The notes under the pieces: generated by a model
What the model was told of the DNA's origin: nothing
Databases searched by the model: none
Seen by the model: the letters and a program-made list of their open reading frames with translations, nothing else
Part shown: piece by piece, positions 22,657 to 28,374 of the stretch
Numbering within the stretch: position 1 is the stretch's first letter
Layout of the letters: each line of letters begins with the position of its first letter
Program-made: the position numbers and the translations under genes
Source of the DNA: Chloroflexia bacterium SDU3-3
Lineage (GTDB): Bacteria; Chloroflexota; Chloroflexia; Chloroflexales; Roseiflexaceae
Assembly: GCA_009268125.1 (NCBI GenBank)
Contig: WBOU01000010.1
Coordinates: 124,001 to 188,000 of the forward strand
DNA: 64,000 bases
Direction of reading: 5' to 3'

Positions 22657-22730
22657 AGAAGACAAATGATCGCCCCAAATCGTTGTTACGTGGATCTACA
22701 GGCGATGATGGCCAAAAAGTGAGGAATACG

Positions 22731-25148
22731 ATGAGCCAAGTCTCGGATCTTCTCGATCACGAGCTTCCCGAAGAAGAATTCAGCGCAGTGGAACGTGAGC
22801 TACCGCTCGTCGTCCTTGGCGAGATGGTGATCATGCCGCACATGACCGTGCCACTTCAGGTCGGTCAGGGCAAGTCGTTCCGCGCGATGGAGCAGGCATG
22901 GGGCGAGGATCAGGAAGTACTGCTCATCTTCGTCTCGGAAGATGAAATTGAAGGCTATAAAACTGGCCAGCCCCAGCAGCTTCCGCCTGTCGGCGTGATG
23001 GCGCGGCTCGGCGAGTTCGTCAAGCTGCCCGATGGGACGGTGCGGATCATCCTAGAAGGGCAGACCCGCGCCGCCACCGGCGATATCGTGCAGAGCGAGC
23101 CGTTCTACCGCGTCAAGTGCACCCCCGTCAACGATGAAGACGTGGTCGGGATGGAGGTCGAGGCGCTGATCGACACGGTCAAGCAGCAGATCGACGAGGT
23201 GGTAGATTATATGGGCGAGGTGCCGCAAGACGCGGTGGCCTTTGTCCACCGGATCGACAAGCCCGGCCACCTGGCCGATATTGTCACCTATGCGCCCGCG
23301 TTCACCTTCACCGAGCGGCTAGAGATCCTCAACGAGCTGGATGCGGTGGAGCGCCTGCGCAAGACCTACCTGCTGCTGGCACGCCAGCTGGAGCTGCTGA
23401 AGCTGCGCCAGAAGATCCAGCAGGATACCAAAGAGGTGCTCGACCAGAGCCAGCGCGAGTACTTCCTGCGCGAGCAGATGCGTGTCATCCGCCGCGAGCT
23501 GGGCGAGGATGACGAGTCGGACGATCCGGTGGATGAGCTGCGCCGCAAGATCAGCGAGCTCAAGGCCCCTGACTATGTCAAAGACCAGGCCACCCACGAG
23601 CTGAAGCGGCTGGCCCAGCAGGGCATGAACAGCCCCGAGTCCAGCGTCATCCGCACCTACCTCGACTGGATCTTGAACCTGCCTTGGGCCGACGAAGAGC
23701 TGCCCGAGATCAGTATCAGCGAGGCCCAGCGCGTGCTGGATGAGGACCACTACGGCCTCGAGAAGGTCAAGGAGCGCATCCTCGAATACCTGGCCGTGCG
23801 CAAGCTGGCCGGCAACAAGATGCGCAGCCCGATCCTCTGCTTTGTGGGGCCGCCCGGTGTGGGTAAGACCAGCCTGGGCCGCTCGATCGCCAAATCGCTG
23901 GGGCGGCAGTTTGTGCGCACCAGCCTCGGCGGCATCCGCGACGAGGCCGAGATCCGCGGGCACCGCCGCACCTACATCGGCGCGATGCCGGGCCGGATCA
24001 TCCAGGGCATGAAGACGGCCAAATCGCGCTACCCACTCTACATCATGGACGAGATCGACAAAGTCGGACAGGATTTCCGCGGCGACCCGACATCGGCGCT
24101 GCTGGAGGTGCTGGACCCCGAGCAGAACAACGCGTTTTCGGACCACTACCTGGAGATCCCCTACGATCTCTCGCAGGTGGTGTTTATCGCCACCGCCAAC
24201 CAGCTTGAGCCGATCCCTGGGCCGCTCCGCGACCGCATGGAGGTGATCGAGATCGGCGGCTACACCGAGGACGAGAAGCTGGGCATCGCGCAGGGCTTCC
24301 TGGTGCCCAAGCAGCGCGAGTTCCACGGCCTGACCGAGGAGCAGCTGACGCTGACCGACGGGGCGATGCTCAAGCTCATCCGCGAGTACACCCGCGAGGC
24401 AGGCGTGCGCAGCCTAGAGCGCGAGGTGGCCAGCCTGTGCCGCAAAATCGCACGCAAGGTGGCCGCAGCCATCGATGCGGGCGAAGAAGTGACACCATTT
24501 GTGGTCGATGCCGACGGCATTGCCACCTACCTGGGGCCAGAGCGCTTCTCTTATGGCTTGGCCGAAGAGCAGGACGAGATCGGCGTCGCCACCGGCGTCT
24601 CGTGGTCGCCTGCAGGTGGCGATGTGCTGTCGATCGAGGTGCTGCCGGTGCGCGGCAAGGGCGGCATGCAGCTGACTGGGCAGCTCGGCGATGTGATGAA
24701 GGAGTCGGCGCAGACCGCGATGAGCTACGCGCGGTTCCGCGCGTCGGATCTGGGCGTGGACCCGAACTACTTCGACGAGCACAACATCCACATCCACGTG
24801 CCCGAGGGCGCGGTGCCAAAGGATGGCCCCTCGGCAGGCATCACGCTCACCACCGCGCTGATCAGCGCGATGACGGGCAAACCGGTGCGGCGCGACGTGG
24901 CGATGACAGGTGAGGTCACGCTGCGCGGCAAGGTGCTGCCGATCGGCGGCCTGAAGGAGAAGACGCTGGCCGCACACCGCGCCGGTATCCGCACCTTCAT
25001 CCTGCCCAAGGACAATGTCAAGGATATCGTGGATCTGCCGAAGAAAGTACGCGAAGATCTGCAGCTGATCCCGGTCTCATCTATGGATGAGGTGCTGAAG
25101 ATCGCGCTGACACAGGCTGCTCAGCCGCCAGCGCAGCCAGCTGCCTAG
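22731..25148 (+). CDS. lon: ATP-dependent protease Lon
   Basis: An 805-aa AAA+ serine protease that degrades damaged and selected regulatory proteins in the cytoplasm. The N-terminal substrate-binding domain (about 25-215) begins [20 protein letters not shown] coiled-coil linker follows, then the ATPase with Walker [10 protein letters not shown] (about 380) and Walker [11 protein letters not shown] (about 440). The protease domain has the catalytic Ser in PKDGPSAG (about 703) and the partner Lys in [13 protein letters not shown] (about 746). ATG 22731 is chosen because GAGGA lies 5 bases before it; an in-frame start 16 codons earlier is not. It ends at a hairpin. Confidence 0.97.
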
Positions 25149-25248: not shown

Positions 25249-25254
25249 TATCAT
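25249..25254 (+). promoter_or_regulatory. -10 element placing the transcript start at the lipoprotein ATG
   Basis: TATCAT at 25249-25254, with TTTGGC 18 bases upstream, puts the predicted start about 7 bases on, at the ATG itself (25261). The mRNA may be leaderless; no Shine-Dalgarno sequence is present. Confidence 0.35.
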
Positions 25255-25260
25255 AACCCC

Positions 25261-25881
25261 ATGAAAATTATATCTACCACCCTCATCGTGCTGTGCTGCA
25301 CGATTCTCGCGGGCTGCTCCAGCACAACGCGATCAACCCCTACCGTGGCGCCCACCACGGTGCCAACCATCGCCGAGGCACTACTGGCCCCGGAAAAAGG
25401 ACCGCTGGCCACCGCAACCCCCAGGCTGCAGGTCGTGCCGAGCCAGCCCACCGCCATCCCAGGCAGCACGCCGAGCCCAGCCACCAGCGCCTTCGTGTAT
25501 CTCTGGCCAGCATACCTGCCAGATGGCATGTATGTCTCGCCAAGCGAGTCGCGGGTGCCGCATGCGAACGAGATGGGAAGCACATCTACTGGCTTCTATA
25601 TCGTTACGTTCAATAGCGACACGCGCAAGATCATCGTGGGAGGCGGGGCAACAGATAGCCTGGTACTAAACGGCGAGAGCCGCTCGGTGGAGTATGATGG
25701 CGAGATGGCCACATTGACCACAGATGGAGAGCAGCGGGAATTTGTATTTATCAAAAATAAGGTCAAGTACTTTATCTACAGCCGTAATATCAGCGAGCAG
25801 GAGCTGATCCTCGTGGCAGAATCGATGGTTCCCAACGAGCTAACTGCAATTCAAAACATCGTCGCAGGGAAGGAGCAATAG
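25261..25881 (+). CDS. Lipoprotein of unknown function
   Basis: A 206-aa exported lipoprotein. The signal peptide MKIISTTLIVLCCTILAGC has a lipobox (LAGC, Cys19). A Thr/Pro-rich spacer (about 22-80) leads into a folded C-terminal part (about 85-206) containing YLPDGMYVSPSES, a beta-rich core and ISEQELILVAESM at the end. That ending resembles DUF4367-type domains found near anti-sigma factors, but the match is weak. ATG 25261 is chosen for the signal peptide; upstream in-frame codons overlap the -10 element. No partner gene is evident. Confidence 0.75.
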   Translation: MKIISTTLIVLCCTILAGCSSTTRSTPTVAPTTVPTIAEALLAPEKGPLATATPRLQVVPSQPTAIPGSTPSPATSAFVYLWPAYLPDGMYVSPSESRVPHANEMGSTSTGFYIVTFNSDTRKIIVGGGATDSLVLNGESRSVEYDGEMATLTTDGEQREFVFIKNKVKYFIYSRNISEQELILVAESMVPNELTAIQNIVAGKEQ

Positions 25882-25887
25882 CACGCG

Positions 25888-25977
25888 CTAGCCGCAGCGG
25901 GGGCAGTCGTCGCCCGAATGCGGGCCGTGCTCTGGGCAGTCGTCGTTCGCGCAGATAATGGGGCTTTGCTTGTGCAT
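25888..25977 (-). CDS. Cys/His-rich microprotein, copy 2 (29 aa)
   Basis: A 29-aa open frame with a strong AAGGAG (25986-25991) 8 bases before its ATG. The C-terminus reads DCPEHGPHSGDDCPRCG, nearly identical to its upstream neighbour at 26026-26118. The Cys-x2-His-x2-His and Cys-x2-Cys spacing, plus an extra Cys9, could bind one zinc ion. The N-termini of the two copies differ, so selection seems to act on the Cys/His part. I know of no named family. The two look like a tandem duplication of roughly 140 bp, including the ribosome binding site. Confidence 0.7.
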   Translation of the reverse strand: MHKQSPIICANDDCPEHGPHSGDDCPRCG

Positions 25978-26025
25978 TGTGGTAGCTCCTTGGTGTAGTG
26001 TTGCCAAGCCATATCGTGGTGTGCG

Positions 26026-26118
26026 CTAGCCGCAACGGGGGCAGTCGCCGCCCGAGTGCGGGCCGTGCTCCGGGCAGTCGCCACCGTTGCCGTGTGCATA
26101 GATGGTCACGTTTTTCAT
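26026..26118 (-). CDS. Cys/His-rich microprotein, copy 1 (30 aa)
   Basis: A 30-aa open frame with AAGGAG (26128-26133) 9 bases before the ATG. It begins MKNVTIYAHGNGG and ends DCPEHGPHSGGDCPRCG, giving ligands C15, H18, H21, C26 and C29. Its paralogue follows 48 bases downstream on the same strand. No known domain is long enough to cover it; a minimal zinc knuckle or metal-buffering peptide is a guess. Coding status rests on the duplicated ribosome binding site and the conservation of the protein between copies. Confidence 0.7.
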   Translation of the reverse strand: MKNVTIYAHGNGGDCPEHGPHSGGDCPRCG

Positions 26119-26298
26119 AGTGCTGCGCTCCTTGCTGTGTAGGCGTTGCCGTGCGGTTTCAATGAGCACAGCTTAGCAGCATGCCCCTTCGGCGCGGCAT
26201 CGGAGCAACTACGGCAAAACTTCGGCCCTCATTTCTGGCTTGCGAGCGGCATATCCGAGAGCAGCAGATAGGCACAGCGGGTCTGCGCATCTTCATAC

Positions 26299-26342
26299 AA
26301 AAGCGCGGCGAGAAGATCGATGGATCTTCTCGCCGCGCTTTT
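26299..26342. terminator. Bidirectional terminator
   Basis: A perfect 20-bp stem (26299-26318 with 26323-26342), 4-base loop, with A-run and T-run flanks built into the stem. It ends the bactofilin-like operon on the minus strand. The rest of 26134-26372 shows no gene. Confidence 0.9.
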
Positions 26343-27332: not shown

Positions 27333-27820
27333 TACAGCACCTCCGGATCATAGCGCGACTGTAGGCGATGGACGATCTGCCAGACTGCGAGGAGGCTGGC
27401 AATAGTCACGAGCAGCGCGCCTACGAGAAACGATACCTGTGTCGCCCGGATCGTATTCCAGAGCGGCTTCGCCGCCAGCTGGATACTGAGCAGCACAGCG
27501 CTTGGCCCAGTGCGGCCATCGCCAAAGGCGAAGGCTAGCTGCGGGCCATTGCCCACCACGCCCCAGATATTAAACGCCGCCACGGCAAGGAGCAGCGTGC
27601 CCAGCATGCCGAGCACGATAGTGCGCCGCCGCCGCTGCGCTGCGCTGCGCTGTGCCGCAGCGGCGGGTGGTACGGGCGGAAGCTTGCCCAGCGTGCGCGA
27701 AACAAGATCAGAAGTGAGTTGATCGGCATCAGCGAGATCAGCGGCAGGATCAAGGAGCCCTTTCAGCGCCGGATCGGTTAGGGTGTCATCGACATCTAGG
27801 AGGTTATCTCGGTATCCCAT
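27332..27820 (-). CDS. Probable membrane anti-sigma factor
   Basis: A 162-aa protein with a soluble N-terminus of about 65 residues and two membrane helices (about 67-88 and 129-150). It sits directly behind an ECF sigma gene and overlaps it by 25 bases. The N-terminal part lacks the His-x3-Cys-x2-Cys zinc motif of ZAS anti-sigma factors. Assignment rests on operon position, size and topology, the usual layout of sigma/anti-sigma pairs; no domain signature is visible. The Arg-rich run AQRRRRTIVLG sits just before the first helix, consistent with an N-terminus inside the cell. Confidence 0.65.
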   Translation of the reverse strand: MGYRDNLLDVDDTLTDPALKGLLDPAADLADADQLTSDLVSRTLGKLPPVPPAAAAQRSAAQRRRRTIVLGMLGTLLLAVAAFNIWGVVGNGPQLAFAFGDGRTGPSAVLLSIQLAAKPLWNTIRATQVSFLVGALLVTIASLLAVWQIVHRLQSRYDPEVL

Positions 27821-28374
27821 AAACTTGATCTCTCAGAGCCGAGAAATTCGGCGAGCATATTCCGGGCGCGGTGAAGCCGGGTCTTGATCGTGCTTTCGGG
27901 CAGGCCGGTGATCTGGCCGATCTCGTCGTACGAAAGCTCATTCATATAGCGAAGCACCGCAACAAGGCGGTAGGTATCGGGCAGGCGCTGCAGCGCGCCC
28001 CGCACCAGCGCGCGCTGCTCGGTTTCAAGCGCGGTGCGCTCTGGGCCAGCGCGCTCGCTGGGCAGCCAGTAGGCTACGTCGTCGAGCGTCATCCAGTTGT
28101 AGTGCCTGCGGCGCAGCCGATCGATACAGTAGTTCGACGCGATTGACAGCAGCCATGTGGAAAGTTTCCTCGATCGGTCAAACGCACTAAGGTGCGAGTA
28201 TGCCCGCAGGAAGATCTCCTGCGTGGCGTCCTCAGCATCTTGGGGGTTGCCGAGCATCCGGTAGGAAAGCCCGTAGACAGCCCCTGTGTAGCGCTGCATC
28301 AACATGCCGAACGCCTGCTTCTGGCCCCCGAGGGCTTGTTGTATCCATTCAAGCTCTTCGGCTTGTGGATCCAT
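27796..28374 (-). CDS. ECF sigma factor with autoregulatory promoter
   Basis: A 192-aa group 4 sigma factor. Region 2 (about 22-95) has FGMLMQRYTGAVYGLSYRML, DAEDATQEIFLRAYSHL and the -10 contact segment STWLLSIASNYCIDRLRRR. Region 4 (about 125-180) has LPDTYRLVAVLRYMNELSYDEIGQITGLPESTIKTRLHRAR. It heads an operon with the anti-sigma-like and bactofilin-like genes. A TGAAAC-N16-CGTA promoter 27 bases upstream of the ATG matches the SigW/ECF consensus, which strongly suggests the factor drives its own operon. Confidence 0.93.
   Translation of the reverse strand: MDPQAEELEWIQQALGGQKQAFGMLMQRYTGAVYGLSYRMLGNPQDAEDATQEIFLRAYSHLSAFDRSRKLSTWLLSIASNYCIDRLRRRHYNWMTLDDVAYWLPSERAGPERTALETEQRALVRGALQRLPDTYRLVAVLRYMNELSYDEIGQITGLPESTIKTRLHRARNMLAEFLGSERSSLWDTEITS

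Follow-up and report, generated by a model that had tools for sequence, protein, structure and literature searches.

The locus raises the question of whether two very short reading frames, lying in tandem on the minus strand of the window (the whole stretch of 64,000 nucleotides that was analysed), are genes and, if so, how they are expressed and what their products might do. The first-pass annotation had described two micro-ORFs, each with AAGGAG 8-9 bases 5' of its ATG, and both were confirmed when the minus strand was read:

26026..26118, minus strand: microprotein A, 30 amino acids (MKNVTIYAHGNGGDCPEHGPHSGGDCPRCG), read from 26118 to 26026, ATG to TAG; homologs found
25888..25977, minus strand: microprotein B, 29 amino acids (MHKQSPIICANDDCPEHGPHSGDDCPRCG), read from 25977 to 25888; tandem duplicate
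26128..26133, minus strand: Shine-Dalgarno sequence AAGGAG of A, 9 nt ahead of the ATG
25986..25991, minus strand: Shine-Dalgarno sequence AAGGAG of B, 8 nt ahead of the ATG

A microprotein family of Roseiflexaceae and their phages

The near-identity of the two peptide ends, also described earlier, is reflected in the DNA, in which 4 of the 51 core bases differ between A and B (3 synonymous changes and 1 non-synonymous), and only the Cys/His core is conserved between the two peptides. In local alignment the duplicated unit measures approximately 130 nt, extending from the leader GGCAACnCTACAC..CAAGGAGC through CTAGCGC, and takes in the leader and the ribosome site without the promoter array which precedes A. 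Since the flanks of A and B also align, tandem duplication is indicated rather than two chance ORFs.

Homologous frames with ribosome sites were present in 11 of the 26 Roseiflexaceae genomes, other genera included, which places A and B far beyond chance; the named matches were from Roseiflexus, Kouleothrix and unnamed Chloroflexota. A third copy (MAHSEPNDLDEPGNDCPEHGPYADDDCPKC) is found approximately 58 kb from the pair on the same contig, the Roseiflexus form of the peptide reads MDYDDLP..CPDHGPYADEECPKC, and members of the family are acidic and 26-41 amino acids long. Four copies are present in the genome G006, including a tandem pair, together with one decayed copy that was located solely by its promoter. 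In this decayed copy (G006:C12:135889; L173 1500-1700; CPLIH..) the frame is broken and the array promoter is still recognisable.

Substitution was strongly non-neutral, with a pN/pS of 0.068 among eight Cys-type orthologs; among six Cys-less paralogs it was 0.055. No model in Pfam, NCBIfam or PHROG matched the microproteins above its cut-off, and a literature search with the core strings gave no match. The earlier suggestion of a duplicated functional peptide without a named family is thus upheld by the homologous frames, the substitution pattern and the database searches. The third copy, the phage homologs, the array promoter and the stem at the Shine-Dalgarno sequence were absent from the first-pass annotation. 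That the sequences form a conserved coding family, in which a tandem duplication has taken place, is certain, and the family is a real, previously unnamed microprotein family of Roseiflexaceae and their phages. Genes of 30 residues usually escape annotation, and several independent lines here show such genes to be real.

In a 400-genome sample of the phylum only two matches were found outside Roseiflexaceae (G443 and G185), and both were judged to be chance frames. These and two Methanolinea loci were rejected, being judged to arise by chance, to run antisense, to fall within long frames or to lack the CxxC pair.

The surroundings of the pair in the window contain the following features:

22683..25148, plus strand: Lon protease, a neighbour
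25252..25881, plus strand: lipoprotein-like DUF4367 protein, beside Lon and convergent with the pair
26299..26342, minus strand: near-perfect 44-nt palindrome followed by TTTT, read by eye and absent from the terminator scan list
27799..28374, minus strand: ECF sigma factor, encoded 5' of the bactofilin-like gene; a neighbour only

The pair is thus flanked by the bactofilin-like gene of the ECF sigma operon and by the convergent DUF4367 lipoprotein gene, and in G006 a DUF4367 homolog is likewise convergent with a microprotein gene. The palindrome probably acts as a terminator that separates the microprotein transcript from the bactofilin-like gene. The ortholog in four genera is found immediately 3' of an Hsp70-like gene and shares its strand, and in Roseiflexus it is located after a flippase gene; the 3' neighbour of the orthologs is usually convergent and often aspartyl-protease-like. 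Among the neighbours scanned, neither a recurring modifying enzyme nor a recurring co-directional target was found beside the copies.

Conserved motif and predicted metal site

The family core can be written as D-C-P-x-H-G-P-x(5-6)-C-x2-C. Of its positions, D, C, P, H, G, P and the third C never vary among the 20 sequences compared, and the fourth C is present in more than 90 % of them. The ligand spacing proposed at first, C-x2-H-x2-H-x4-C-x2-C, is literally present in A and B, but its second His is not conserved elsewhere: homologs have Y, F, C, S or N in its place, and outside the pair it was kept in one ortholog. The second His was consequently rejected as a ligand and the ligand set revised to C-x2-H-x6/7-C-x2-C, which probably holds one zinc ion. 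Metal binding by the microproteins is moderately likely.

The metal site of the family may not be strict, since a Cys-less paralog and two orthologs short of ligands were found. In the G009 Roseiflexus ortholog (L064 1498-1501) a TGA replaces the third Cys codon and the peptide is cut off there, and the G015 Roseiflexus ortholog (L047) ends in CPKSA, its fourth Cys having become Ser. The Cys-less paralog, MDYDDLPEDAPGGDDENTGPYADEYGGEMF or a near-identical form without the Cys/His pair, was found in all six Roseiflexus genomes (L077, L079-L082, L088), and in the five Roseiflexus regions compared it lies approximately 3 kb from Lon. The C-terminus of a Cys-rich protein of 206 amino acids (L099, G005:C74:3747-3809) reads DYDDLPEAPGEDDPDNGPHAVAA and matches the Cys-less microprotein; the protein is possibly a fusion.

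An AlphaFold model from a 15-sequence alignment had a pLDDT of 54 and a pTM of 0.16, that is, no confident fold, and was not used. The sole profile match in the PDB was the PRDM4 zinc knuckle (2l9z, E 0.1), with which the string DCPEHGP is shared.

Predicted promoter array and ribosome-site stem

The region upstream of A contains a predicted promoter, part of which also encodes one arm of a predicted RNA stem:

26183..26226, minus strand: four 11-bp direct repeats (GCCGAAGTTTT GCCGTAGTTGC TCCGATGCCGC GCCGAAGGGGC), a putative activator array with PhoB/OmpR-box geometry
26170..26178, minus strand: predicted extended -10 (TGCTAAGCT), whose hexamer TAAGCT begins 10 nt past the last 7-bp array core
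26164..26172, minus strand: 5' arm of the stem (GCTGTGCTC), which shares bases with the tail of the -10 and with the segment leading up to the predicted transcription start
26122..26130, minus strand: 3' arm of the stem (GAGCGCAGC), overlapping GAG of the ribosome site

Promoters were scanned for by pattern search only. With up to 3 mismatches allowed, the array was matched 11 times across 82 Chloroflexales genomes: nine matches lie before ECF-like sigma genes and two before microprotein genes. The reversed control pattern gave 0 matches in the same genomes. Looser matches were found before two further microprotein genes and one decayed copy. Repeats of 11 bp ending 10 nt before a TGn-preceded -10 were seen at A, at two G006 copies and at the G010 copy. 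The other orthologs have a common promoter of their own (GTMATNTNNNNATNTTGGTAGTA, an 18-nt spacer and TANNNT), and a pattern search with this motif returned the ortholog genes and three unrelated or weak places. Most orthologs, those at the Hsp70-like or flippase locus, have another promoter, so that the sigma link is limited to A, G006 and G010.

The co-regulated sigma-like gene is located on contig C5 and is distinct from the ECF sigma factor gene neighbouring the pair. It encodes a protein of approximately 250 amino acids, found in Roseiflexaceae and Chloroflexaceae (L179-L208, L217-L224), with a weak ECF signature (TIGR02937, E 2.8e-5, below the cut-off). In several genomes it lies beside a conserved protein and GAPDH, and the conserved neighbour matched zf-HC2 (PF13490) above the Pfam cut-off in the two genomes tested. 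Within Roseiflexaceae the microprotein is present in 11 of the 13 genomes with the sigma-like gene and in 0 of the 13 without it (Fisher p 2e-5, a value confounded by kinship); in Chloroflexaceae the sigma-like gene is present and the microprotein absent. On the pattern matches, the predicted promoter link of A to the sigma-like gene is strong, and the array is a putative activator site of PhoB/OmpR type. A probable metal-binding peptide would thereby be tied to one specific promoter, whose use is otherwise nearly confined to a sigma-like gene. As the duplication left out the promoter array, B, without an array of its own, probably relies on the A transcript and is read from an A-B mRNA.

In most Cys-type genes the ribosome site pairs with the bases right after the -10. 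Computed accessibility of the ribosome site was low, with a mean unpaired fraction of approximately 0.18-0.19 vs 0.42 in 86 control genes (p 4e-4). When arms were swapped among 14 genes, own arms gave -14.4 kcal/mol and swapped arms -9.7 kcal/mol (p 1e-5; 6e-5 when Roseiflexus is represented once, 0.008 when each genus is represented by one ortholog). The pairing had been noticed before the -10 was set for every gene, and the arms were then chosen by -10 position and not by complementarity. No arm-matching effect was seen in nine sigma-like genes that have the array promoter (p 0.34), and B and the G006 tandem pair had no clear arm. Covariation of the stem arms is strong by these computed energies.

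Both the -10 and the transcription start are predicted positions. The predicted start lies within the 5' arm or past it, and an mRNA from a gene's own promoter would consequently miss most of the arm. In folds of the predicted own-promoter mRNAs, with the start site assumed, the mean unpaired fraction rose from 0.18 to 0.40, the value being higher in 10 of 14 genes, unchanged in 2 and lower in 2; the ribosome site stayed shut in own3 and G010. The stem suggests a translational gate, backed by the covariation, whose direction hangs on the predicted start sites. An RNA thermometer is not favoured for the stem, since the 5' arm overlaps the -10.

Proposed role, phage copies and known systems

Gene status, purifying selection, promoter sharing and arm covariation are read from the sequences themselves, and a joint reading of the unnamed family can be put forward tentatively, at close to even chances. 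In this proposal A would be made from a dedicated promoter, in which a fourfold 11-bp activator array is followed by an extended -10, the same array otherwise occurring only before the ECF-like sigma gene, which in several genomes stands beside a zf-HC2 anti-sigma-like gene. B would be translated from the mRNA started at the A promoter. Read-through mRNA from upstream would fold shut over the ribosome site, and mRNA begun at the own promoter, without most of the 5' arm, would leave the site open. The peptide itself would most likely serve as a small adaptor or regulator that binds metal, is produced alongside the sigma-like factor and acts in the response which that factor runs. Taken singly, this role in the sigma circuit is possible rather than probable.

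Stand-alone copies of the microprotein are also found in seven IMG/VR phage contigs (e.g. MIAYEVPPDDGPGDDCPDHGPYGDDECPKC), and in an eighth (L213 4559-4891) the motif forms the C-terminal tail of a frame of up to 110 amino acids (DAPGDDCPEHGPYDGSPGDCPHC). The phage contigs scanned encode integrase, DnaC-like loader, DnaB, methyltransferase or terminase. Relatives of the terminase occur in 10 of 158 Chloroflexia genomes, the window's own genome included, so the phage hosts are probably Chloroflexia. No promoter specific to the phage copies is visible, and several of these copies begin on or near the stop of the preceding gene. The INPHARED phages gave no match and plasmids gave weak matches only (E 6-10). 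Since copies are shared with chromosomes, a link between phage and host is testable. A far-reaching extension of the proposal, which is considered improbable, would have the chromosomal microprotein co-induced with the ECF-like sigma factor and translated solely from promoter-born mRNA, and its phage counterpart tapping or disturbing the host sigma/anti-sigma circuit by metal exchange or direct binding.

Two side observations were made on the phage-related genes. The terminase-like gene in the window's genome (L229, G000:C35:7515-8753) is akin to those of the microprotein-carrying phages and may mark a prophage. The gene before the phage microprotein (L209, L210, L211, L216) has a recurring C-terminus, ..PGWLLSLAQQA.. 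in some, which meets the microprotein start.

Several other explanations were weighed. The peptide could be a domesticated phage early-gene product, a small metal-binding factor for host interaction or nucleic-acid processing of temperate Chloroflexia phages, which chromosomes captured and placed under tight control. The seven stand-alone phage copies and the tail-borne one, the phage genes and terminase relatives described above, and the operon-like starts on or near upstream stops all fit this origin; however, the chromosomal orthologs are vertically kept and syntenic across genera, none lies in an obvious prophage, and the direction of transfer is unreadable from 30 residues, and it is judged somewhat unlikely. 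A similarly low standing is given to an acidic, disordered interaction peptide in which the conserved part DAPGGD..HGPYADE binds a partner, the Cys/His residues are optional and metal merely stiffens some members. The Cys-less paralog of six Roseiflexus genomes, itself under constraint (see pN/pS above), the truncated G009 and CPKSA-ending G015 orthologs, the Cys-less tail of the 206-amino-acid protein and the low-confidence fold are as such a peptide would have them, but the Cys/His residues are invariant or nearly so in the remaining members, phage copies included, with N-termini free to vary, and A and B retain the Cys/His core alone.

The remaining explanations are much less probable. A short, Cys/His-rich frame with a strong ribosome site and an adjoining RNA stem resembles an attenuator leader peptide sensing cysteine or histidine supply, but the downstream genes are mostly convergent or unrelated, which speaks against a leader, the stem lies 5' of the ORF and not 3', and residues are conserved beyond the Cys/His codons while synonymous sites are free; with no conserved co-directional downstream gene, this explanation is largely refuted and retains very little probability. 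The lack of a recurrent modifying enzyme or co-directional target argues against both a leader peptide and the precursor of a ribosomally made modified peptide (RiPP). The latter would account for the short conserved C-terminal core, the variable N-terminus and the tandem copies, but no modifying-enzyme family recurs by the copies and the core is of zinc-knuckle type; a precursor was rejected on the neighbouring genes and is regarded as quite improbable. Reading frames of 30 codons abound in this sequence, yet the homologs, selection, ribosome sites and promoters refute chance ORFs, for which the likelihood is negligible.

As a stand-alone zinc-knuckle type, the microprotein fits no named family. 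The nearest in kind are the C(P)XCG zinc-finger micro-proteins of Haloferax volcanii, which are stand-alone, shorter than 70 residues and have a CPxCG-like knuckle pair with one zinc predicted (PMC11241148, PMC10716476, PMC6562870). The family described here is likewise stand-alone and below 70 residues (26-41 amino acids) with one predicted zinc, but CPxHG comes first and CPxC/CxxC second in place of two C(P)XCG motifs, and its members are approximately 30 residues long, have no second zinc site and are bacterial and phage-borne. No sequence relationship to the Haloferax micro-proteins was shown; the peptide is predicted to function like a C(P)XCG zinc-finger micro-protein without being classed as one.

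The likeness to the PRDM4 zinc knuckle (PF18445, PDB 2l9z) lies in the local string DCPEHGP; only 8-13 residues match, with a Pfam score of at most 12.3 vs the cut-off of 25.8. In PRDM proteins the ligands run C-x2-C..C-x2-H, opposite to the order here, and the likeness is probably convergent.

Boxes for activators of the PhoB/OmpR family are 11-bp direct repeats which end approximately 10 nt before the -10 and replace the -35. The array before A resembles them in its four 11-bp direct repeats, 10 nt before the -10 hexamer, whereas its core is CCG(C/T)AGT and not CTGTCAT. The co-regulated gene, with its weak ECF signature and zf-HC2 neighbour, is similarly reminiscent of ECF sigma/zf-HC2 anti-sigma pairs, but as a putative sigma factor it belongs to a divergent family, seen here in Chloroflexales.

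The closest parallel to the stem is found in genes e, soc, 49 and I-TevI of phage T4, in which a stem enclosing the ribosome site has its 5' strand encoded at the gene's own promoter, so that long transcripts are silent (PMC3014915). As in T4 gene e, the ribosome site here is computed to be paired in long transcripts, and the own promoter, by its predicted -10, overlaps the region encoding the 5' arm. Unlike the T4 gates, the one proposed here is deduced from sequence alone, is chromosomal, and has another promoter type and an unrelated product. The resemblance suggests that the T4 trick of hiding a ribosome site behind a promoter may be used by a bacterial chromosomal gene.
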